NCBI GenBank assembly: GCA_963377175.1
Contig: CAUJNA010002724.1
Location: 153,593-217,592, forward strand
From: Effrenium voratum
Taxonomy: Eukaryota > Sar > Dinophyceae > Suessiales > Symbiodiniaceae
Reading direction: 5' to 3'
DNA length: 64,000 nt
Shown here: piece by piece, positions 12,460 to 54,206 of the stretch
Layout of the letters: each line of letters starts with the position of its first letter
How positions within the stretch are numbered: the first letter of the stretch is position 1
Made by a program: the position numbers and the translations under genes
Notes under the pieces: generated by a model
What the model was told of the DNA's origin: nothing
What the model saw: the letters and a program-made list of their open reading frames with translations, nothing else
The model's database searches: none

Positions 12460-14109
12460 CGTCCGGGAGCAAATCAGAGAAATAGATGGCAACCACCAGG
12501 TAAACCAGGGCCAGGCAAACCAGGGCAATCGATTTTTCTACCAAAACAACCAAAAGGACACCTATGGGGCTTGCGCAACCTCCAGCCATGTGAGAAAGGG
12601 CGCGCCCTTCTGTTGGCTGCTTGAATTGAAGCGAAACCGCCCAAAAAAAACAAGTTGACTGCAAGGGCACCACTGGAAGTCTGGAAGCATCACAATTTCC
12701 TTGTGGTTTTGGAGTACCTTGAAGAGAGACAATCCCATATAAGCAGAATGGGTTCAGCTCGCTGGATTGCACATGGGTCACATATTGGCCGAGGATCACG
12801 TTTTGGTCCTTGGCCGCCCGCGGGCCGTGAAGTAATGTCACAGCCCTGGAGGTTGCAGCGCAGGCTTTGGCAGACTTGGACACATGGGGTTTTAGTTGGA
12901 ATAGGCCTTTGCACAAACTTCTGGGCGTCCCTTTCCATGCTTGCTTCCCAGAAAACGCTTCAAAATCTTGAAGGTTTGGACATTCCATTAGGAGGAGTGA
13001 GGCAATGGCCTACTGGCTACACAAGAAAAAGCAACTTGCTGAGCGGACTTGCCAAAGGAAGTCCAAACTTTTGGTTTGACAAACATAGTACTTACACAGA
13101 TTATGCTGCCGTGATCATAAGGCAACTTTGGTTTGCACTTGCCTTCCCGAATTCTAATCATTTACGCCCGCATACGAAACACACGAAATCAAAATGTTCA
13201 GGGACTCAGTGCAGCGAGCGTGCGTCACCCTCCCAGAACACGGTGCGGATATGTTTGGGGCCCCTTGACTTGCAGAGGTTCTTCGGGTCAGTCCGAAGTT
13301 AACATTCAACAGGTGAGTAAACAACAACCGAGTAAACGGGGCACTGGCATCTGCCACAACCGAGTCACTGTGCAGGCAGCATTTGCGAGAGGCTACCAGT
13401 AGCTGCCGTAGGACCAATACCGCGCGACCTGGCCAGGCAGGCCCCAACTCTAAGTCTGTCCCTGAAACAATGGCTGCAATACTCTGGGCCAAGAACAACA
13501 AGCATCTGCCAGAATCTGGGCTTGTGGCCCCCTGAACTTTTCATGGGCAACATGTGGCCCAGAAGGTCAGGGGACGCTTTGACCAAGAATTTGGGAAACG
13601 TTTTTACAATCCCACCTATCTGAACTGGGACACGCTTTGCACCCTGTGGCACGGAATCTTGGGAACGAGTTGTTGCGCTGCAGGGGCAAACTCTCCGAGA
13701 GGCGTCTCCGGCGAGGGTAAAAGTGTCTCGCAGATACTGAGCGACTGGGCGACAGGGTAAAAAAAACGTCTCCGAAACTCAACAGGTTAAAACAAAGAAG
13801 ATCCCCAAGGCTCTGATTCAAACAGCTGCGGCGACGCTTTGGCCCACACATGTCTGTCGCCCGGACTGTGTGCTGCCCTGAGGCTGGGAGACGATGTTGC
13901 CCAGTTGCCAAGAATCTCAGAAGCTTTTGCGGTAACAGGAGTTCCGGGCGGGAAAGAGCGTCTTACTCTCCACTCTCCACTCCACGCCAGAATTTGGAAC
14001 GCACTTTTGCCCTGCCTTGCCTCCCGAAAGCAGCGCTGCGCTCATTTCACCCTGTCGCCCAGAATCTGGGGACACTTTTACCCGGCAATGTACCTGATTC
14101 GAGAGGGCA
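12460..14109. other. non-coding stretch leading into the minisatellite module
   Basis: No defensible exon. From about 13500 onward, degenerate units of the GGGCGACAGGG..GTAAAA.CGTCTCC family appear (13690-13790, and in inverted sense near 13970-14080), marking the edge of a compositionally distinct region that runs to about 17500. Confidence 0.5.
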
Positions 14110-21071: not shown

Positions 21072-21365
21072 CCGCCCCCCCCCCATTGGGACACACACAC
21101 ACACGCACACGCACAAATTGCATGGCAGGGTCGATGCTCTCATTTTTTACGGCTTGGATTCAGAAGTGCCTCTGGAATTGGAAAGCATTGTAACTGGGAA
21201 ATGGCGGAAGTTTTTACCGTAAACTCCTTGTTACTTTTCAAGACCTGAAATGACCTTTTGGCTTCCCTGATTTTGGCAAAATTGTGCAAAGGTTCCAGAA
21301 GATGATCACCTTTCATGTCCAGGTCCAAGCTGGGCAACTGAGTCTTTGGTCGGTTGACCCACTAC
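21072..21365 (-). repeat. dispersed repeat family K, copy 2 (inverted)
   Basis: Reverse-complement match to 7020-7345 over about 300 bp, including the terminal (GT)n tract followed by CCCAATGGGGGG. Fragments of the same family are likely at 20600-20660 and 33440-33535. Confidence 0.85.
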
Positions 21366-21521
21366 TGGATTCCAGGAAAAGTAACCCGGGCCGCTGGCAA
21401 ATTGTGAAGTTCTGATTTGGGCAACCAAATCCCCAGAGGGTTTATTCCACCCGAGTGCCATCCGAGCTGTGCCCAAGCTGGGCGCCAGATGCGCCACGGG
21501 CGAAAAGAACCGCGCCTTAGC

Positions 21522-21587
21522 CTTGCACCCGGCGCAGAGGTCGTAGTCGCAAGCACCGCAACCCCAGAAATGCTCCCCAGATTTGGC
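21522..21587 (-). CDS. zinc-finger exon, second half of a C1/DC1-like or ZZ-like domain
   Basis: A 66-nt block in phase 0, bounded by GTGAG|GCC and CAAG|GCT, reads SGEHFWGCGACDYDLCAGC. The C-x2-C-x4-C-x2-C pattern with FWGC and CDYDLC is typical of the second half of DC1/C1-like or ZZ-type zinc-binding domains, which bind proteins or lipids. The first half (HPL..TPH..YACDGC) is the exon at 24312-24413. With a GC donor there (CAG|GCG) and this acceptor the phases match (0/0), and both junctions share AGGC. The intron is about 2.7 kb. The exact family (C1_2, ZZ or a dinoflagellate variant) is inference. Confidence 0.6.
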
Positions 21588-21646
21588 CTCACGTGGATTG
21601 GAGCTAGGAGGCCTTAGGTAGGAAAGCTTGGTGTAGGCATATCCTA

Positions 21647-21760
21647 GGTCCTCCAGTAGAGAGAGTAGAATAAGTTGGTACCCGATTTTTTCTGTGGTCT
21701 ATTTTAGTAGGGGAACCCTCCCCCTAAAAAAAGGGTAAAAGGGCACTACTGGGGGACCTC
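21647..21760 (-). repeat. MITE family M, copy 1
   Basis: Inverted ends GGTCCTCCAGTAG and CTACTGGGGGACC, 114 bp. Interior (TTTAGTAGGGGAACCCTCCC) is shared with 27304-27427 and 36551-36676. On minus it begins GAG|GTCCCCCAG and ends GGACCTAG|G, the same splice-like edges as copy 2, but its flanks are not clearly coding. Confidence 0.9.
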
Positions 21761-21774
21761 GTATCCATGCAAAC

Positions 21775-22140
21775 AAAACCGTAGGAGTTTTTAGAAAATA
21801 TGTCCGGAAGATATAGGCAACGCAGGTGGATATAGACCTTATGACCACTTCCATGGGAAAACCATGAAATCCGGAAGATAGGAGGAAATGCAGGTGGATA
21901 TAGTCCGTATAGCCAGTTCCATGGCAAAATGCAAAATCTGTAAGATACAGGAACAACAGGTGGATATAGGCCTTGTAACCAGTTCAAAGGAAAACATAAA
22001 ACCCATGACAGATTGGACAAAACCGTAAGACTTAGGAAAAACACGTGGATTTTGGCCTTACACCCATTTCCATGAAACAAAAACAACAACATGACAACCG
22101 TAAGATATAAATACAGGGACAATCATGCTGACATAGGCCT
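21775..22140 (-). repeat. degenerate tandem repeat, unit about 75-80 bp
   Basis: Four to five diverged units containing AGATA, CAGGTGGATATAGGCCTTAT and CCAGTTCCATGG. The minus strand stays open through it with recurring NWL.GLYPP, as expected of a unit near 78 bp. It is probably a decayed minisatellite, not a protein. Confidence 0.75.
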
Positions 22141-22231
22141 TACCCAAGCCCGCCGGCGGCCACAAGATTTGCAAATCTTTTGAGCAGTTGATTTAAAAGG
22201 GACACACCCTTCCAGAAAAACGTGGCTGTCG

Positions 22232-22330
22232 GTAGAAGGGAGCAACAATTTAAATGTTAGCAGTTCAGTGGGGATTTTCCACTAAATCACAATAAGCAAA
22301 AATGCAAAATGTTCTCAACAACAACCATGA
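22232..22330 (+). repeat. dispersed repeat family C, copy 3
   Basis: GGGAGCAACAATTTAAATG, TTAGCAGTTCAGTGGG, CACAATAAGCAAAAATGC and AAAATGTTCTCAACAAC match copies 1 and 2 in order. Confidence 0.75.
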
Positions 22331-24104: not shown

Positions 24105-24200
24105 TCTCACTTCCTGCGTGGATTGGCCAACAAAAAGTAACCAAACTTTGATTTGCCAGTAAGGTCAAAACCCACAAAGCGTCAAGTCCAGGAACTCGGG
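24105..24200 (+). repeat. MITE family E, copy 3
   Basis: CTCACTTCCTGCGTGGATTG at the left, GTCCAGGAACTCGGGG at the right. Located in the intron just past the zinc-finger exon. Confidence 0.8.
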
Positions 24201-27225: not shown

Positions 27226-27300
27226 TCAGGTTCCCTGCGAAGGCTTCTGCTTTTCCGAGCCCCGCTCGCGCAAGTTAACGAGAACCAGGATGACTTTCTC
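27226..27300 (-). CDS. CULT-domain gene, last exon with stop
   Basis: 75 nt after the acceptor GGACCTAG|GAG, in phase 0 with the previous exon. Reads EKVILVLVNLRERGSEKQKP and then SQGT followed by TGA at 27226-27228. The VILVLVNLRERG segment looks like a genuine protein end. The acceptor is supplied by the inverted end of MITE family M copy 2. The stop assignment is an inference; a downstream splice before TGA cannot be excluded. Confidence 0.6.
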   Translation of the reverse strand, partial: EKVILVLVNLRERGSEKQKPSQGT

Positions 27301-27426
27301 CTAGGTCCTCCAGTAGAGAGGTTAGTGGAGAGGTTAGAATAAGCGCACCCTTATTTCTGTAGTCTAGTTTAGTAGGGGGACCCTCCCAAAAAAGAAAAAA
27401 GGTGAGAAAGTGCACTACTGGGGGAC
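27301..27426 (-). mobile_element. introner: MITE family M copy 2 forming a 126-nt GT-AG intron
   Basis: The element (inverted ends GGTCCTCCAGTAG and CTACTGGGGGACC, 27304-27427) coincides almost base for base with a GT-AG intron on the minus strand: CACTGG|GTCCCCCAG at the donor and GGAGGACCTAG|GAG at the acceptor. Both flanking exons are open and join in phase 0. Copies at 21647-21760 and 36551-36676 show it is a dispersed repeat, so the intron is a transposable element insertion. Confidence 0.75.
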
Positions 27427-27585
27427 CCAGTGGTTTTCGCCCGGCTGGCTCCAAACCTCGGGCTCTCCTTGGGACACGTCAGCGCCGGCGTTCGGCACGC
27501 CGACGACCCGGCGGCGGCTTTCCGCTCTCGGAGGTGCCTCACAGCTCGAGGCTTGCAGCTCGCTTGCAGCAAAGACAGCAACCGG
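27427..27585 (-). CDS. CULT-domain gene, exon after the CULT domain
   Basis: 159 nt (53 codons) from acceptor GTTTCTCAG|CCG to donor CACTGG|GTC, phase 0 at both ends. Reads AVFAASELQASSCEAPPRAE, then RRVVGVPNAGADVSQGEPEV, then WSQPGENHW. Low-complexity A/E/S/P-rich, as expected of a linker or tail after the folded domain. It joins the exon at 28632-28725 if that one ends at GGCAAG|GAG (a GA donor). Two other frames are open for part of the block, but only this one stays open and joins the next exon in phase. Confidence 0.6.
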
Positions 27586-35849: not shown

Positions 35850-38451
35850 ACGGTGTTTTCCCCCTGCGGCCTTTCGAAAACATCGGTAGATGGTTGAAAC
35901 CAAGGAATCGCCGTCCATGTTCTCCCCCACAAGCAACCAAGACACCTATGGTGGTTTACCCCGTTGCCTGCTGGAAACAGTCGCCCTTCGGGGCAACTCC
36001 CAAACCTCTGGACATGCCCCATCTGGGTGGTTCGTCTTTGAGGCTTGGTACCCTTAGGGCCTAAGGGTTGGTTCGCCTGGAAATGCTAGCACCCCTTTGT
36101 GGGTAACTTGTCATCCCCTTCCTCAACAGCTACCTCTTGAAAAGAATCGCCGTCCAAAAAGCTCCTAGTCTCATTGTTGGGAGATATTTGGACCTGAGGC
36201 TTCAAACAAAGTCACTGCCTCAAAACGAATGCCAAATTCGGGGAGAGTGAAGGCCCCACCTAGGGTCAGAAGGACATAAACACCAACAGCAAGACGGCTC
36301 CTTCTTTCTTTTTGTGGTATCCGTTTTGGAGTGGGTGGCAAGGGAGACCAAAGGCACACCCAGCAGTTTTGGGGTCCCTGTATTTTCGATTTCGAGCCGC
36401 ACCATCGACGTATGGACGACTTTGATGGGATGCTCGAGGACCCGCTGAGCAAGATGTCCCATGTCCGAGGTTTTGTGAGGGTTTTTGTATCACACCCTGG
36501 GGTGACACCCTTGGGAATGACCCCGAATGGTTCAAAATAACACGGTTGTGTAAGACCTCCAGTAGAGAGGTTCGAATAGGTCGGTACCAACTTTTTTCAG
36601 AACGTCTAATTTAGTAGGGAAACCCTCCCAACCAAAAAAGGGGGAGAAAAGGGCACCTAGCTGGAGGAGCACCTAGGTTTGTTTCTTAAAGGATGTTCAG
36701 GGGCTAAGGTCACTCCGAAGACCAGCCATGTCAGAGTTTCACTTCCATCAACCGCGCTCGGATCTTGCAACTGGTCCGCCCCCTTCGGTTTTTGCCAAAC
36801 ATGTGAGTGCGTGGGACAAGCATGACGCACGCAGACACCATTTGGATGGATTTCCTAGTTCCCACAGACACACAGACACAAACAGACAAACACACACACA
36901 CACACACTGCCTGAAAGTCATCAGGCGCCCCGCCCCATATCCTCGCATAAAATACAGCCCGCTGATCAACGACAACTTGAGAAAGGTCAGCCTGCTGGGA
37001 AGACTGGCACTGCGTGCCAGAGCCAATATTGCCTTAATCGCTAGCCTTGGACAAGTCCTGTTAGGTATCGCCTGTCCCGGCCCGAAGCTTGCTAATCATG
37101 TCGAAATGTCAACACAGCAGGTGGCACAGCGGTCCAGCCCGGACAAAGCGGATACCACCCCCAGCTTGACCGATTCTACTAGAACAACGGCATCAGACCG
37201 CACCCACTTTCCAGCCCCCACCAGGTACAAACTCCTTAAGCGTTGCCACCATTTCAGGGCCGACCCTTATATCTCATACGTTTTGTCGAGGTCGATTTGC
37301 GCAGCTCCAACTTGGAGGCTTTCTCAGGGATCCTTACATGATACACCTGAGCATCCTTGTAAATGGTGGTGTCCCTTTATTTTGGTGTTGAAGAAGCCAT
37401 GGTTGCAACATGTATCGTTTAAGGAGCCCTGTTTCTGGTGCCACCTTCGGCCCAGTTTGAGGAGGCATCCGTACGGGGACCGAAAAGCGGGGATCGAAAA
37501 GCGCCCCGAGAAGCGCCCCGAGAAGCGATTTTGCGGGATTCATTCGCCAAAACTGGAAAACACGGACCGGTTTTGGGTCCCAAAGTGCTGGTTGCACCAA
37601 ATACCTGGACACCACTGGAGGCCCTGCATTTTGACAAAAGCACAGTGAGAGACTCGCCTTTTCTCTACTCGCCCAAAGGACCTGGACTTGAAAGATTAAA
37701 CCATGGTTGACCTTTTGGAACCAGGGGTCACTGCATTCCCCCAAATAGAAAGTGCATCCATATTTCTGGCGGTTTCCATTGAAGCCATCGCCACTTTGGG
37801 GTTCCCTTGAAGCCTGGAGAACCAAAAGCCCAATCCATGTCTTGGCGGTTTCCGAAACGATCGCCACTGGAGGTTGTCTGAGAATGGCTCGGATATTCTG
37901 GAAAACCCAAACCCGGAAAGCCCATCGCTTCGCTGGCAGAGTCTGCCAAAGATCACGAAAGCCAAGCGGCTGGCGCACCTCGGAAGGGGCGGGGTAGCCC
38001 ACCAGTTGGAGGGACGGGGGGCCATTTCAAGCAGGAGTTAGACCCCTACGGTGCAACATGGAACCCCAAAAGCCCGCCTTTTTGGGGTTCAAGGTTGATT
38101 TGAGTAGACCTATGCCAAAAGTGATCTTTAGACTCCACCCATCTTTAGACGCATCTCCTGTTGGGAAAATCTGACCCCTTTCTGGGATTCCGTGTTAATT
38201 TGTAGGGAAGTAGACCTTATGCTAAAAGTGAACTTTTGCTCGAAAGGGAGAATGGAGGAAACCCCAAATAGGCAAAAGTCAACGCCTGGCAATGCGACAT
38301 GGTGAGTTGTCGGTTGAGTTTGGCTGCAATTATGCCTTGAGGGGGAGAGAGCGGGAGGAGGGGGGGGTCTTTGTCACGCTCACGTTTTCTCGGCATGAAA
38401 GTTAGGCAAGAACTGAGACACTCCACTGCCACAGGAAACGGACATGATGTT
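35850..38451. other. mostly non-coding stretch with weak exon-like patches
   Basis: Holds family M copy 3, a (CA)n tract at 36889-36907 and short repeats of CGCCCCGAGAAG near 37500. Two imperfect copies of a TTTCC..CGATCGCCACT..GGAGG word lie at 37775-37885. GC-rich open patches at 36930-37030 and 37920-37985 have no defensible strand or frame. Confidence 0.4.
36551..36676 (+). repeat. MITE family M, copy 3 (diverged)
   Basis: GACCTCCAGTAGAGAGGTTC at the left and TTTAGTAGGGAAACCCTCCC inside match copies 1 and 2. The right end is degenerate (AGCTGGAGGAGC). Confidence 0.8.
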
Positions 38452-43157: not shown

Positions 43158-43426
43158 GCTAGAACCAAAAGTTGCGGGATTGGTCGTCCGCGAGTGAGAT
43201 CACAGTCCTCCGAAAATGGGCATTTAGGGGAATGGGTAGGGGAGTGGTCCGGGGCAGTAATTCAAATCTGAAGCATCAACCGCGGCCTGGTACGCCAGAG
43301 GACGCTGTTCTTAGCCCAAGTGTTTTTTCCTTTCACTTGGTTACTTTGTGCCAGAGGGCACTAGGTCGGTCGGAAACAACACACCGCCTTGCGCCAAAGG
43401 ACGCTGTCAGTGTATGGTGTGTCGTT
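43158..43426. other. short spacer with repeated words
   Basis: Contains GCCAGAGGACGCTGTTC (43291-43307) and GCGCCAAAGGACGCTGTC (43392-43409), which recur as GCGCCAGAGGACGCTGTC at 43987-44004 on the other side of the TTG tract. Confidence 0.6.
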
Positions 43427-43957
<531 letters not shown>

Positions 43958-44225
43958 AGTCTCTTGTTTCGCGGAGAGCCGCTGTGCGCCAGAGGACGCT
44001 GTCAAGAGTTCCCGTTGTTGCCGCCCTATTAACTTACACCTGGGCGGAGCGGAGAGCCGCCGTGAGGACGCCGCCCTACGCCTGTGATAACACAAGACCC
44101 AGCAAACCAAGTGTTGGTCGTGATCGTGGAAGACCTGTTGAACGATCACCTTTCCCATTGGGCAGTAATTGCAGAAAGAAGGATCAGCCTTCGACTGCCT
44201 TTCCCTGCTGTTTTTTCTGATCGAG

Positions 44226-44912
44226 TTACGCATTCTGTCGCTTCATGCGGCTCTCGTGTTTGCTTCGATCGTGCGCGTTTGCAAACACGATGTTGCAGCA
44301 CAAGCACGTTCGCTGCGCATCGCCAGGTCCTCTGCATAGTGTGATAGACGGCCACTTTTTGTTGCATTTCCGGCATGTGAGATTCTGTTCTTCACTTCCT
44401 CGGCATCCGCGTTTGTGCCGCTCGACCGCCTGGTCGAGTCGCTTCTTGGTTTGCCCCTGTTGCACTTGCTGCCACCCACACCCGCACTGCCAGTATAGGC
44501 CAGCGCCGTCTCGTGTAGGGGCGCGTTGGAGGCACGCGCCTTCGTGGCGCGTCCGTTTGGTCATGGTCGGGCAGAGCGCATTGCAGAACGTGCATCGTAG
44601 GTTCAGCTCCGCATCGCCTCTACAGCGAGCCTCGTGGTATAGACGGTTGACTCGTGTGCCCACCTCGGTGTTGCATTTGCGACACTTGTGTGGCGGCAGC
44701 TCTTTCAAAGGCACCTGACTGCACTCTCGTTCATGTCCCGCACACACATCTGCGTGGCGGAACACTTTGCCACACTGTCGGCAGACCTCCGCTGTTTCCT
44801 TGGTCAGTTCGCCGCTGTGCGGCTCGGTCCCTTTTACTCTGGCATCCCACCTGGCCCCGCGCCCCCTGACCTGCAAGTCGGTCTGCATTTTCGTTGCCTG
44901 GGTGCGCTGCAT
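44226..44912 (-). pseudogene. LINE C-terminal zinc-finger region
   Basis: The frame (shifted relative to RNase H near 44890) carries at least five finger-like units: VCRQCGKVFRHADVCAGH, HKCRKCNTEVGTRVNRLYH, LRCTFCNALCPTMTKRTRH, a WQCGCGW unit, LTCRKCNKKWPSITLC and CLCCNIVFANAHDRSKH, followed by a stop at 44226. Such fingers in LINE proteins usually bind the element's RNA or the DNA target. The region is intact apart from the frameshift at its start. Confidence 0.7.
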
Positions 44913-45684
44913 GTCCCTTTACCCAAGTCCACCGGACGTCCCTCGTGTTTGACACCTTCTTGACCAGTTGCTGGACGGATTTGGCTAGCGCTTGATTGGC
45001 TTGGGAGTCGTAGTAGATGTGCAAGGCCGTATCTCCCGGTCCCGGCGCCTCCGTGTCGATCCAGACGAGCGCCTCGGCTATAGCCGTGAGTTCAGCCGTG
45101 TTATTGGTCGCCTTGTCCGCCCCCAGATAGCGCTGGTCCGTAGCGTCAGTCAGTACTGGTCCATGCAGTTCAGCAATCGCGCGCACTCCGTCGGGCAATG
45201 CGTACACGGCTACTCCCCATCCGGCGCCTTCGCTGTCTGCTGCTCCTCCGGAGCCGTCCGTGAACACGTGCCAAGTAGGCGGCGGTTCAGGGATGTCTGG
45301 CGCGACGTGCTGCAGCTGTTCTTGTACCATTGCGGGTCCCCTGCACTGATGCCGTGTCTTTGCGTAGGCGTTCGGGAAGCGGCCCTTGCACTCTTTGCAG
45401 ACGTGTTCTTGCATGGTGGTCTTTGTGGGGTCGAACACTGCGTGTTGACTGTCATAATGGCTCCGAAGGTGACGGACGTCGACCGCTTGGTGATTACACA
45501 CTGGGCATTCCCCTCGCGCCAGCTGACTGGATCGCTTTGTCCACACCGCTCTGCGCAACCTGAGTCTCGGCGGCGCCGGTATGGGGGGCGGTCGTCCAGG
45601 TCGCCAAGAGTTGACGGCTCTCTTTTGGTGTGGCTTTATAACTGGCCGCGGAAGTCCGCGCTTGATGAGCGCGTCCCACGTCGG
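44880..45684 (-). pseudogene. LINE finger plus RNase H domain
   Basis: Directly after a TGA (45685-45687) the same frame continues. It has two finger-like motifs (CPVCNHQAVDVRHLRSHYDS and HVCKECKGRFPNAYAKTRH), then a complete RNase HI: FTDGSGG, NNTAELTAIAEALVWID, IYYDSQANQAL, WVKGHAAHPGNENADRLAGQ. The four acidic positions D-E-D-D and the His of the active site are present. RNase H removes the RNA strand during cDNA synthesis. The frame is lost at about 44890. Confidence 0.8.
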
Positions 45685-47295
45685 TCAATCCTGTGCTAGT
45701 CGGAACCAGTCGAGCTCCGGTATGTCAGCCAGTTTCAGCACCGTCTGTAACCACTTCTGCTGTCGCGTGGGTCCGAACTGACCCGGCTCTGCGTCTTGCC
45801 AGTGCCCCCACATTGCGATCTTAGGTAGTCTGTGCGTTGGCATTCGTGCTACATAACCCATCCATCGCAAGGTTTGTCTGGCCAACACCTTCTCGATGGG
45901 TTCCCATTGCGCCATGGCGTGTAAGTCCTGATTCCGCACATGATACTCATGCATGGCCACACGGTCCAGTCCCAACGCCCTTTGGATCGCGTAATTTTGT
46001 CGGGTTTGCAAGTGCTCAATTTGGGCCCGGGTCCAGGCCCGAGACCTGCTAAAAGCAGTGAGGGTCGGCACGATGATGTTGTGCATCACCTTGAGTCTAG
46101 TTGCGAACCGTATCCCGCTGGTAGCGCCCCTGCCCTTGGAGCTTCCGAGGCTCCACGCCTTGGCGACTGCTCTGGCCCTTTGCATGGCCATACTACCCCT
46201 ATGAATGGTGTCCTTGCATTGCGTAGCAGTGGCTGACAGGTAGCCTCCTACGTGCCGGACTGTGTCGGGCAAGTCCGCATCGCGTCCTCGTTTTTCTGGG
46301 CGTGCGGCTGGGACGATGCGCAAGGTTTCCGTTTTGTTGCGGTTCAGCCTTTCGCCCCAGTCCGTGAAGGTCGTTTCCAGTATGCTGTCCGCTGTGATCG
46401 CCTCGCTTTCTTGGGCGAACGTCGCCGTGTCATCTGCAAACTGGATATCGCCCAAGATATCCTGTCGGATCTGATGGTTGCTGTTCAGACAAGCCTGTCG
46501 CTTGGTAAATTGCCCTGTGATCTTGGTCTTCCACTGTATCCCAGGTTGCGCGCCTGTTTCCTCGGCGGCTCTGCTGCGACGGGTCCTGTAATCCGCCATC
46601 ACTGCCGCGTGATACACGTTGAAAAGAGGAGGGCTGCTCGGGCAGCCCTCCTTTAATCCCCGTCCCGCAGTATACCCATCTGATAGGACAGCGCCACTCT
46701 GCACGCGAAACGACGTGTAGTCGGACCAGATGACACCACCTCCTCAGTGATGCGTCTGCATGGAAACTTGCAGAACGTCATCAACGCCGCGATTGCGCCG
46801 AAATCCTTGTTGACGCTCGTCCATGAACTCTTCCGTGTGTGTCTGAAACCGGTTGGCGACGATGCGCGCCACCACTTTTGCCCCCACGCTGAGGAGCGTA
46901 ACTCCCCTCCAGTTGTTCTTGTCTGATCGAGGTTGCTTCTGCTTCCATAGTGGCACGATAATGGCCGTCTTCCATGCCTCTGGCCAATCGTGAGCCTCTT
47001 GTCCGAGTTGCGTGCTGGTCGCGTCCATCCACATTGTTTGTATGATAGTACACAGCTGATGGTGCATTTCATCCGGCGCCCATCGTAGTGCCTCCACCGT
47101 AACGCCATCAATGCCCGGAGCCTTGCCGAGCTTCATTGCTTTGATGGCTTTTTGGATTTCCGCTTGGCTCGGCTTTTCGTCCATCCATGTGGCTCGGTCC
47201 GCTCGCTCGACGACGTTGGCCCAGATACGGTCGTGTACCGGTTGTGTGCCGTCCTGTATGTGGCGAAAGTGCTCCTTGCACGCTTGGGCTTCCAT
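45685..47295 (-). pseudogene. LINE reverse transcriptase lacking motif A
   Basis: The finger part is clear (KPSQAEIQKAIKAMKLGKAP, GIDGVTVEAL, PLWKQKQPRSDKNNWRGVTL, DERQQGFRRNRGVDDVLQV). It then shifts frame (RRITEEVV in another frame at about 46755) and jumps straight to YTSFRVQSGAVLSDGYTAGR GLKEGCPSSPPLFNVYH (motif B region). Only about 80 bp separate the two, so the usual 60-90 residues with motif A and its catalytic Asp are deleted. Motif C (IQFADDTATF, about 46425-46450) and the thumb follow. TGA at 45685-45687 sits where the frame continues PTWDALIKRG. Confidence 0.8.
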
Positions 47296-47860
47296 AACCG
47301 GGTTGTCCGGCTGCTGTACGCCGAGTCACCGCCCTCCCCCGCAATTGTCTAATCAGGTCGTAAAGTGCCCGGCTGTCGTTTCTAGCCGCTGCAGTCTCTG
47401 CCTGATTGCTCAACTGATTCCACCATGTGTCTTCCCACTCTCTTAGTTGGCGTCGTTTGCGTCGCGTGGCCGCCTGGACCAGTCTCCAGGCCTGCGCGCA
47501 AAAGCCCGCGGCTTCCTCATCTTCCTCCTGTCTGTAGGCCCACTCCTCAGCTTTGTCTCTGGCCGTTTTGGCCGTGGCCACCGCGAAACTGAGCCGGCGT
47601 AGTTCCGCCTCCTTACCGGCTAGCCATGGTCGGGGGGGTTTGGGCTCGACTGGGCCAAACACTTTTCGGGCGGCCTTTGTGGTGACGTTTATGACGTCGT
47701 CCCAGTGTATGGGGCTGGTCCTGTCTGTGAGCTGCGTTTTGATTTCTTCTGCGTACTGCGCGCGTAGTCTTTTTGCGGCTGGTTCATCACCTCTCCCGGC
47801 TACCCATGCCCAGCGCTTTGCGCGTTGCGCAGGGGCAGTCATCCCCTGCGGCGGCGCGAT
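47296..47860 (-). pseudogene. LINE linker between endonuclease and reverse transcriptase
   Basis: Open frame rich in Arg, Lys and Glu (AQRAKRWAWVAGRGDEPAAK, KEAELRRLSFAVATAKTARD, WRLVQAATRRKRRQLREWED, LYDLIRQLRGRA), typical of the helical linker of such elements. The frame shifts near 47300 before the reverse transcriptase. Confidence 0.6.
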
Positions 47861-49340: not shown

Positions 49341-50750
49341 TGAGAGGGAGTATCAATGCGCCAGCTGGCTGCTTCATTTCATCTCTTCATGAGTTCAGTA
49401 AGAAAGGAAAAGACAAAACAAGGAAAAACACAGAAAAAGGAAACCCACACGCACGCCAAGCAACCCGCGGCAAGCGTCCAAGGGGCCCGACGAGAAAAGA
49501 AAGGAAAACGACAACAGGAAAAAAAAAGGACGTCGTTCTTTTCTGTCATTCTTTCAATGTGTCTCGCGCGTGCCAGCATCCACTACCAATGTTCTTCCCC
49601 TGGTTGGCGGTTGTTTTGAGGTTAGCCCTGCTAGCCCGTCAGGGCTTCACTCCCAGGTGACCCTCCCTCCCGCAAGCATAGGAATACTAGCCTTGTCCAC
49701 TCCGATGTAAAAGTGCACAAAACAAAGGACCAATGGGGGGAAGAGCATAATATGGATTCCGCAAGAACCACATCCAAGGCGTTAGCTAGACTGAAGAACA
49801 GGTAGGTGACAGCAATGGTTGTCTGCCAACCCACGTTGAAACCAATTCAGCTTTTCAGCAAACAAATTGCAGCAGTGTCTGCCAACTAAGCGCAGGTGCG
49901 TGCACTTAGTCGGGACAAGCTTGTTTCTGAAGACGGTCGGGACTCGCAATCCCCGCATCGTATGGACATGTATCAAGGTACTTTGCCAGTATGAATGTCC
50001 AAATGCATACGGGGCCTCTCTCCGCAAACCAGCAGAAGGAAGAGTACCAAGCCTCAAACAAGCATGGGTTTAATAAGATTGATTAGTTAGGGCCCACCCA
50101 TTCGGCTTGAACATGCCGTCCCATGTTCCCTGTCCTCCGGTGGCTTTTCAAGCCCTCGGCCGCGACAGGCGAGCATCAGAAGCCTGAGACGGTGCATGGC
50201 CGCAAAGGCCCCTCGCCAAGAGCAAATCTGAGAACAACCATAGAAGGGGGTCTTAGGTAAGTTGTTGGGAACCTAGGCTAACCCGTTCTGCAACGAAGGA
50301 ATTGGAACGCTTCTTCGGCTTCTTGGGGTTGCCAATGTTAGAGGTTGGCGAGGAAAACGAAGAAAGTAGGCTTCAATCGCATCGAAGAGGGTCTTGAGAG
50401 AGTTTTGGGCTGGGGGTCCATTTGCGTATGTCTCAACATGGGTCTGTCGGTTTGTAGGTTGACAACCAAAATGGGGTAAAACGTGTTCCTTTGTTTCCCT
50501 TTGCAACCACAAAGAAGGAGTACCAAAAACAGACATTTCCCCCCAAAAAAAGGCACACCCCTTTGGACGACCAAAAAGGCCAACGGCCCGTTGTGTCCAT
50601 CCATGGCCCCAATCCTTCCCTGCGTCCGGTTGGGCAGACGAGGGTTCCAATGTCGGGCGTGCATCACAGGGCAGTCCGATGACCCGAACTGGTGTTTTAT
50701 CATCAAAGTCAGCCTCTAAGCGCTACGTGAAAGGAAAACTCGGTCGCTTT
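49341..50750. other. non-coding stretch
   Basis: No exon supported. A GC-rich patch at 50140-50210 is open on minus (AAMHRLRLLMLACRGRG) and on plus, undecided. Confidence 0.4.
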
Positions 50751-50751
50751 C

Positions 50752-50832
50752 TGCTCCCCTGCTAAAAGTTTAACTTTTAGCGGTTTAATGGAAAACCCAT
50801 TAGTTGGCAAAAAGTTAAAGTCCTAACATCCA
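50752..50832 (+). repeat. dispersed repeat family D, copy 3
   Basis: GCTCCCCTGCTAAAAGTTTA and ACTTTTAGCGGTTTAATGGA. CTAAAAGTTTAACTTTTAG is an almost perfect palindrome at its centre. Confidence 0.7.
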
Positions 50833-50954
50833 AGCAAATTGCAACAAAGAAAACTTAACACCACCATCCAGTTTCTGACTTTGACCCCCTGTCCAAATGT
50901 AGACCCTAGAGCCCGGGCCGCAAAAGGAACAGTCCCAGGGCCCATTTTTTCCGC

Positions 50955-51000: not shown

Positions 51001-51085
51001 CTGGCCCGGCGGGGCTCAAGTCTCCAACCCCAAAACGGCTTCCAAGGACATGGTTTGGTGTTGAAGCCTTGCTGGGAGTTGTACC

Positions 51086-51210
51086 TTCCATTTGGTTAAG
51101 ATCCCTGGGCAAATCGAAAAAACATAAAACAGATTTCCAGTAGTGATAAATTCCCTTTTAAATCCAATAAGGGGAAAGAAACAACATATTCATTTCAGCA
51201 AATGGAAGAC
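51086..51210 (+). repeat. MITE family A, copy 4, inside a 40-bp direct repeat
   Basis: Inverted ends CTTCCATTTGGTTAAG and CAGCAAATGGAAG. Immediately left (51047-51085) and right (51207-51247) stands the same sequence: GACATGGTTTGGTGTTGAA, then CCTT, then TGGGAGTTGTA. Confidence 0.9.
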
Positions 51211-52952: not shown

Positions 52953-53278
52953 GACCAACCAACCAACCAACCAACCAACTAAACCAACCAACTAAGCAAG
53001 CAACAAGGCAAGCAACAAGGCAAGCAACAAGGCAAGCAACAAGGCAAGCAACAAGGCACGCAACAAGGCAAGCAACAAGGCAAGCAACAAGGCAAGCAAC
53101 AAGGCAAGCAACAAGGCAAGCAACAAGGCAAGCAACAAGGCAAGCAACAAGGCAAGCAACAAGGCAAGCAACAAGGCAAGCAACAAGGCAAGCAACAAGG
53201 CAAGCAACAAGGCACGCAAAAAGGCAAGCAACAAGGCAAGCAACAAGGCAAGCAAGCAACCAAGCAACAAGGCAACCA
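52953..53278 (+). repeat. 12-bp minisatellite AAGGCAAGCAAC
   Basis: About 24 tandem units with few changes, preceded by (AACC)n. Because the unit is 12 bp, all frames stay open (ACLV.. on minus), so the long ORFs here are artefacts. Confidence 0.95.
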
Positions 53279-53299
53279 ACTCAACCAGCCCAACCACGC

Positions 53300-54206
53300 A
53301 AAGCAACATCAGTTGCTGCACAGTTTAAGTGCTATTGGCTTGGTGGAAGGAGCCTGCAGGTGTCCATGCAGGGTTTAACCGTCCCTGGATCCTTTTTGAA
53401 CAGTTTTGTCATTGAGTGGGACATGTCGTAAGTCCGTCTAAACTCCAAATATCTAAACCTCTACGGCTGTGTGAATATAGGTCAGGGGCAACTGGCACTG
53501 GACAGTGCTATAGTTCCCTTTTGCCAGGTTTCAACATCTCACCTTTTGATGCTTCGTCTAAAGCAAGCCTCCCCTTGGGAAGTCCGCGAGAGGGAAAAAA
53601 AGGAAAAACCGGGTGATTAAAAGACAAAGATCCGGTTTAATCTCGGCCGATGTTGTGCCTGTTGAGTAAACCGGACTTCTTGCCGACCCTGGGTATGCTT
53701 ATGCCATGCCTCCTTGCTCAAGGGGTTTTGTTGAAAACATACGACGCCGTCTCACGAATCTCCCCTTGGAAGCCAGACCCGGTTGAAGACAGGACGTGCA
53801 AATCACATTTGGGTCTAAGTAGAAGACGTCCTAATGAATTACTTAGGCAGAAAAGTGGTCTGGAATCAAAATTTCAACCAGAAGCCCGGGTTCTGCTGAA
53901 TCCAGAGTTCCCATGTCTCAGGTGGAGGTCCTGGAACAGGAAAGGAACCGAAGCCCCGCCAGCCCAGGTTCCCCAGAAAAAGGTGATCAGCTTCTGGGGC
54001 CGCGCAAGATGAAACAGAGGAAACAAAAAAGGTCCTTTCAGGCCGGCCTCCGCCTGCAAGAGAGGCGAAAAACAACCTGTCCAAAAAACTGTCATGTTTG
54101 CAGGTTGGTGGGGAAATCATCATCCCCCCCCCCCCAAAAAAAAAGAAGAGAAAAAGAACGGTCGGTGGGAAAATAATCACATCCCCCCCCCACCATCACC
54201 AACAAA

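Follow-up and report, generated by a model that had tools for sequence, protein, structure and literature searches.

A 130-base element on the minus strand of a 64,000-nucleotide stretch of the Effrenium voratum genome (the window) is read here as a copy of family M, a high-copy family with terminal inverted repeats that inserts with one polarity, and this copy likely forms an intron or the 3' end of one. We give this reading a probability of about 0.5. The verdict on the family is that of a strand-locked, introner-like MITE, which bears on how introners come to be sense-oriented and on how introns arise in bulk. The window, with a GC content near 50%, belongs to an assembly of 1.156 Gb in 3,699 contigs.

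Element M27 and its flanking blocks

The element and its surroundings comprise the following features.

27301..27430, minus strand: family M copy M27 (CTGGGTCCCCC ... GGAGGACCTAG), 130 bases
27415..27430, minus strand: 5' inverted end of M27 (CTGG followed by GTCCCCCAGTAG)
27301..27316, minus strand: 3' inverted end of M27 (CTACTGGAGGACCTAG); its last AG is the proposed 3' splice site, and G follows
27314..27337, minus strand: 12-base tandem duplication CTAACCTCTCCA/CTAACCTCTCTA in M27, from sequence and alignment
27427..27585, minus strand: predicted coding block e1 (PVAVFAAS...PGENHW); 52 of 53 residues are kept in the predicted protein P0001, which has one residue more
27226..27300, minus strand: predicted last exon e2 (EKVILVLVNLRERGSEKQKPSQGT, stop); GC by codon position 0.60/0.36/0.72
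27301..27456, minus strand: alternative 156-base intron, donor GAG|GTTTGG at 27456, phase 0

An earlier note on this DNA had taken the minus-strand stretch 27301-27426 for an intron filled by the element from end to end. The geometry is as claimed there, with a start in GTCCCCCAGTAG, a finish in CTACTGGAGGACCTAG and GT-AG borders, but the element turned out to be larger than these 126 nt. Its real extent is 130 bases (27301-27430) with ends of the CTAG type, and the 4-base duplication of the family lies outside them, which makes the proposed intron 4 bases shorter than the element at its 5' end; the GT of the proposed donor stands four bases inside the element. The inverted ends are exact in M27 (13-mers at 27304-27316 and 27415-27427) and in a second window copy, M21 (21647-21659 and 21746-21758), but degenerate in the third copy, M36. 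The 12-base tandem duplication is seen in M27 only, being absent from M21 and M36 in the alignment of the three window copies, and it gives this copy two CTAAC motifs and two pyrimidine tracts. The 3' part of M27 carries CTAAC about 20-25 bases before the acceptor, then CTCTCT and CTAG|G; to judge from the sequence, CTAAC may be the branch point. The flanks of M27, ACCA and GAGA, match at one of four positions, i.e., the copy is without a target duplication. A match as poor as this is not rare, because 12 of 66 family M copies match at 0 or 1 position.

The block e1 was found at a single place in its own genome and has a conserved counterpart on a related contig 217,289 bases long, the source of P0001, a public gene prediction. 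Over this 53-residue block P0001 shows one substitution and one inserted residue; past e1 it reads on into the element and has a different tail. Judged from its residues, the DNA behind P0001 would have extra single bases inside the element, one base fewer just before e1, and within e1 a length change of a whole codon only. The presumed single-base shifts thus lie outside e1, and this relative seems to have the element in the corresponding position. Searches turned up no homologue of e2, Pfam gave no match to e1 and e2 together, and no counterpart of P0001 was confirmed in viral contigs.

Both blocks are open and join in phase 0, as the earlier note had it, but phase 0 alone is not decisive, because 24 open codons, the length of e2 before its stop, follow 49% of AG sites (13,023 of 26,694), and 17 donors of the GT, GC or GA type in e1, counted from 30 bases into the block and including TGG|GTCCCC, join e2 in phase 0. 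The codon-position pattern of e2 is less common: with thresholds chosen near the observed values, it recurs at 246 of the 26,694 AG sites (0.9%). These numbers bear on whether M27 could be an ordinary MITE at the end of a gene, which we consider a serious possibility, albeit one we would bet against. In that case e1 would be the last block, with a frame that stops in the element or in a longer intron, and e2 would be open by chance. An in-frame TAG inside M27, at which the e1 frame could end as ..HWVPQ stop, agrees with this, as do the abundance of AG sites with 24 open codons behind them and the sister copies, which show no excess of open frames. However, the e2 pattern is uncommon, and the tail of P0001 within the element differs, so that a tail encoded by the element would not be conserved.

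On the preferred reading, splicing would join CTAG|GAG to one of two donors, TGG|GTCCCC for an intron of 126 bases or GAG|GTTTGG for one of 156, and would use CTAAC and the pyrimidine tract near the 3' end of the element. From these signals it is likely that M27 is spliced as an intron, or part of one, and that it serves as the intron between e1 and e2 or gives the 3' end of it. The stricter claim of the earlier note, an introner, may be put as follows: insertion itself created the 126 bases as a single intron, with both splice sites in the ends of the element. In this exact form it is doubtful. It accounts for the GT and AG at the termini of the element, the phase-0 join, CTAAC and the pyrimidine tract, and what holds of it is an inverted-repeat, high-copy element with a terminal AG directly against a conserved predicted coding block, e1, on the same strand; in addition, most of a predicted kinase intron matches a related family (see below). 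What speaks against it is that M27 has no target duplication and that GT...AG splicing at the proposed donor would be expected to leave 8 extra bases in the mRNA, CTGG plus the second duplication copy. Moreover, 17 donors are in phase, not TGG|GTCCCC alone, and GTCCCC looks unpromising by eye, the insertion sites of M are AT-rich, and M copies do not generally lie between exons.

Family M in the genome and its relation to introns

Besides M27, the window holds three matches to the family.

21644..21761, minus strand: family M copy M21, exact 4-base duplication GATA/GATA
36550..36676, minus strand: family M copy M36, degenerate ends
12606..12679, minus strand: weak partial family M match, E 1.1e-4

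The sister copies at 21.6 and 36.6 kb that the earlier note had pointed out are recovered at E 1.1e-38 and 4.7e-36 by a profile built from the three window copies, all of which score within this range; aligned with one another, the copies show 67-75% identity. Next to M21, an ORF at 21306-21698 (minus strand) contains a stretch, GEHFWGCGACDYDLCAGC, that resembles ZZ (E 0.04, below cut-off); a homologue search with this ORF gave none. A unit of about 58 bases is present in four imperfect direct repeats at 21803-22079 with a spacing of 66-85.

A genome-wide search, as proposed in the earlier note, was made with the pattern GGTCCYCCAGTAG-N75-105-CTACTGGRGGACC; the 1.16-Gb genome holds at least 2,933 copies with exact ends, vs. 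0 for the reversed-pattern control. A sample of 82 hits yielded 66 copies with both ends and 64 with enough flank. In the 66 copies, left and right flanks match in 69-76% of cases at four positions outside CTAG, vs. 27-32% in shuffled pairs, and the neighbouring positions match at control level. Since the flanks match at exactly four positions, the family has 16-base ends, CTAGGTCC...GGACCTAG, plus a 4-base target duplication. All four positions match in 27 copies, three in 18, two in 9, one in 6, and none in 6, i.e., 3 or 4 positions match in 45 of the 66. The measured copies span 84-139 bases, and most have a terminal AG at the 3' end. Family M thus shows the terminal inverted repeats, fixed-length target duplication, high copy number and short length of a MITE, and it is presumably a non-autonomous DNA transposon whose transposase is supplied elsewhere. 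A search of viral and GTDB contigs with the 17-base end pattern returned end-fragment matches only, of a chance-like kind, and Rfam gave no match to the window.

As a family, M copies do not show the excess of open joined frames that would be looked for if they filled introns. For half-windows of 30, 45, 60, 75 and 90 bases, at least one open joined frame was present in 89, 70, 52, 41 and 30% of 64 copies in sense and in 80, 64, 58, 53 and 41% on the antisense strand, vs. 91, 81, 68, 57 and 46% at random places. Open frames in sense are slightly more frequent than antisense ones close to the element and never more frequent than random ones. Similarly, the mean open spans in 66 copies were 84.5 codons (target), 85.0 (GT splice) and 83.3 (antisense). 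The insertion sites of the 64 copies are AT-rich, the base after AG is T in 28, A in 21, G in 10 and C in 5, and right-hand duplications starting with GT, GC or GA were seen in 5 of the 64. Because joined frames are not in excess, sites are AT-rich and G follows AG in only 10 of 64 copies, M is not generally a set of exact introns; a minority of its copies could be.

A possible intron comes from F7, one of 13 further short families (F1-F13) obtained by de novo comparison of stretches chosen for holding M. In one such stretch, a kinase gene on the minus strand is broken by 107 bases, GT...CAG, with borders picked visually to suit the kinase frame. Taken singly, the first open frame reaches 94.4 bits against Pkinase (profile positions 2-172) and the second piece 12.8 bits (173-202, E 0.08); joined, the exons score 111.9 bits (2-202). 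Most of the predicted intron, 71 of its 107 bases, lies within an F7 match (E 1.3e-6, 20.7 bits), which suggests that elements related to M can be introns, but the match also extends 17 bases into the kinase exon. Two M copies and an F12 copy lie within the same 6 kb on the kinase strand; no coding flanks were seen at these copies.

Strand agreement of short families

Within each genome stretch examined, all M copies lie on one strand. Among the matches listed (240 copies on 127 contigs, with some strands read by eye and a few neighbours being close duplicates), neighbouring copies less than 300 kb apart are on the same strand in 91 of 93 cases, vs. 13 of 20 beyond that distance. Eight of the other short families are oriented as M is: F1 (32:2), F2 (26:2), F4 (13:0), F5 (22:0), F6 (10:1), F7 (25:1), F10 (11:1) and F12 (9:0), together 148:7 for copies of certain strand. 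The controls F3 (6:7), F9 (5:7) and F13 (10:4) give 21:18. The families were grouped after the orientations had been seen, and 4 F6 and 7 F3 copies were set aside as ambiguous; the stretch L035, which overlaps L034 and has an inner copy nearly identical to that of L034, was omitted. F8 and F11 are uninformative on orientation because they are near-palindromes (strand ambiguous in 12 of 12 and 11 of 13, respectively). The notion that all repeats are co-oriented was rejected, F3, F9 and F13 as a set not being biased.

In the window, M, F1, F2, F4, F5, F7 and F12 together amount to 36 minus vs. 1 plus, and the control group to 5 vs. 5, palindromes included. The following are further copies of F1, F2, F4, F5, F7 or F12.

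51085-51208, minus strand: short family copy
50739-50843, minus strand: short family copy
22221-22329, minus strand: short family copy
24106-24200, minus strand: short family copy

F1, F2 and F5 have best-fit 4-base duplications and CT...AG ends; F4 has a less exact 4-base duplication and the 5' end CATGG. F6, F10 and F12 are co-oriented, yet without CT...AG ends, and for F7, F12, F6 and F10 the best fit revealed no clear duplication. In the titles, abstract openings and passages that made up the literature surveyed, which did not include Roy et al. 2023, no strand lock of short elements is reported.

Dinoflagellate genes are described, in the passages available, as running in one direction over long clusters (PMC11453091). 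Within 301 kb, 8 of 9 kinase and ion-channel genes point the same way as the nearest listed M (the one that does not is on contig C824), and at longer range 7 of 11 do; 15 Pkinase and Ion_trans places agree overall and 5 do not. These come from the 21 of 229 such places that share a contig with a listed M, one being left out because its gene was already represented; for five contigs the nearest copies come from other match lists. Because dinoflagellate genes run one way over long clusters, M is most likely in sense with transcription. A coding score by codon position did not separate the M-sense from the antisense strand. In Pfam searches with the ORFs ranked highest by this score, the best 120 of 693 M-sense ORFs included one strong ORF (RCC1, 7e-22) and a weak EF-hand (0.003), and the best 120 of 704 antisense ORFs gave weak matches only (best 2e-4), which is too little to decide the coding strand.

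Three causes of the strand agreement may be considered. It is very improbable that the orientation is dictated by asymmetry of the target site together with a skewed base composition of the strand. The observed orientation does score better in 29 of 45 reconstructed targets, but this is far from 98% agreement, and the M strand is only slightly skewed (A 0.223, T 0.248); target asymmetry was therefore rejected as the main cause. Selection is rather unlikely: insertion would occur both ways and antisense copies would be lost, e.g., through pairing with sense copies in the transcript. The dense same-family copies in the window (8 of F5, 9 of F7, 6 of F1) are what such pairing would act on. However, F3, F9 and F13, of similar copy number, are together unbiased, although F13 alone leans towards agreement, and F4 and F12 are sparse in the window and yet 13:0 and 9:0. 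Polar insertion, coupled to transcription or replication, is favoured over the loss of antisense copies, because selection on splicing fails to explain one-way copies with non-coding-looking flanks beside unbiased families.

We assume that M is one of several short families that would insert with a single polarity relative to transcription or to a process of the same direction, such as replication. Such polarity would place splice-like signals on the sense strand wherever copies land. Exact introns would then be a minority of insertions, those in exons, and most copies would lie in non-coding, probably intronic DNA. We propose only tentatively the wider form, in which at least nine short families insert one way over domains of about half a megabase by reading transcription or replication, their exon copies being ready introns. 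If true, the polarity of insertion, rather than selection on exons, accounts for introners always being sense. A strand-locked group with non-coding-looking flanks separates these two causes, and it would allow the direction of transcription along dinoflagellate chromosomes to be read from sequence alone.

Comparison with known systems

MITEs are short elements with inverted ends and a target duplication, present in thousands of copies. Family M is like them in size, ends, duplication and copy number, but unlike them in its near-total strand agreement over hundreds of kb, for which we know of no MITE precedent.

Introners of Symbiodinium microadriaticum (family 1) are described in the available parts of Gozashti et al. 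2022 (PMC9860276) as elements of about 115 bases with inverted ends and 4-base duplications, in which the element carries the 3' splice site, the duplication gives the 5' site and the copies are introns. Compared by description, M is similar in length, inverted ends, 4-base duplications and a 3' site in the element; it differs in that 5 of 64 duplications start with GT, GC or GA, in its AT-rich sites and in the lack of a duplication at M27. The introner elements of Amoebophrya, according to the available passages of Farhat et al. 2021 (PMC7789003), have inverted repeats of 8-20 bases and border direct repeats of 3-5 bases, and were defined among non-canonical introns without family-specific ends. 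Set against these passages, M shares the inverted and direct repeats and a dinoflagellate host with co-oriented genes, but it has one fixed end sequence and GT-AG geometry.

Repeats of other kinds were also seen. Retroelement pieces occupy 44734-47325 (minus strand) of the window, with RNase_H at E 3.5e-16 in one ORF; two other ORFs match RVT_1 at E 1.3e-5 and 3.7e-5, scores that fall short of the curated cut-off. Long simple-repeat tracts at 43400-44000 and 52980-53330 produce open frames on both strands. Elsewhere in the genome, a stretch with an M copy (L061:15-1900) contains a tandem array of units of about 110 bases.
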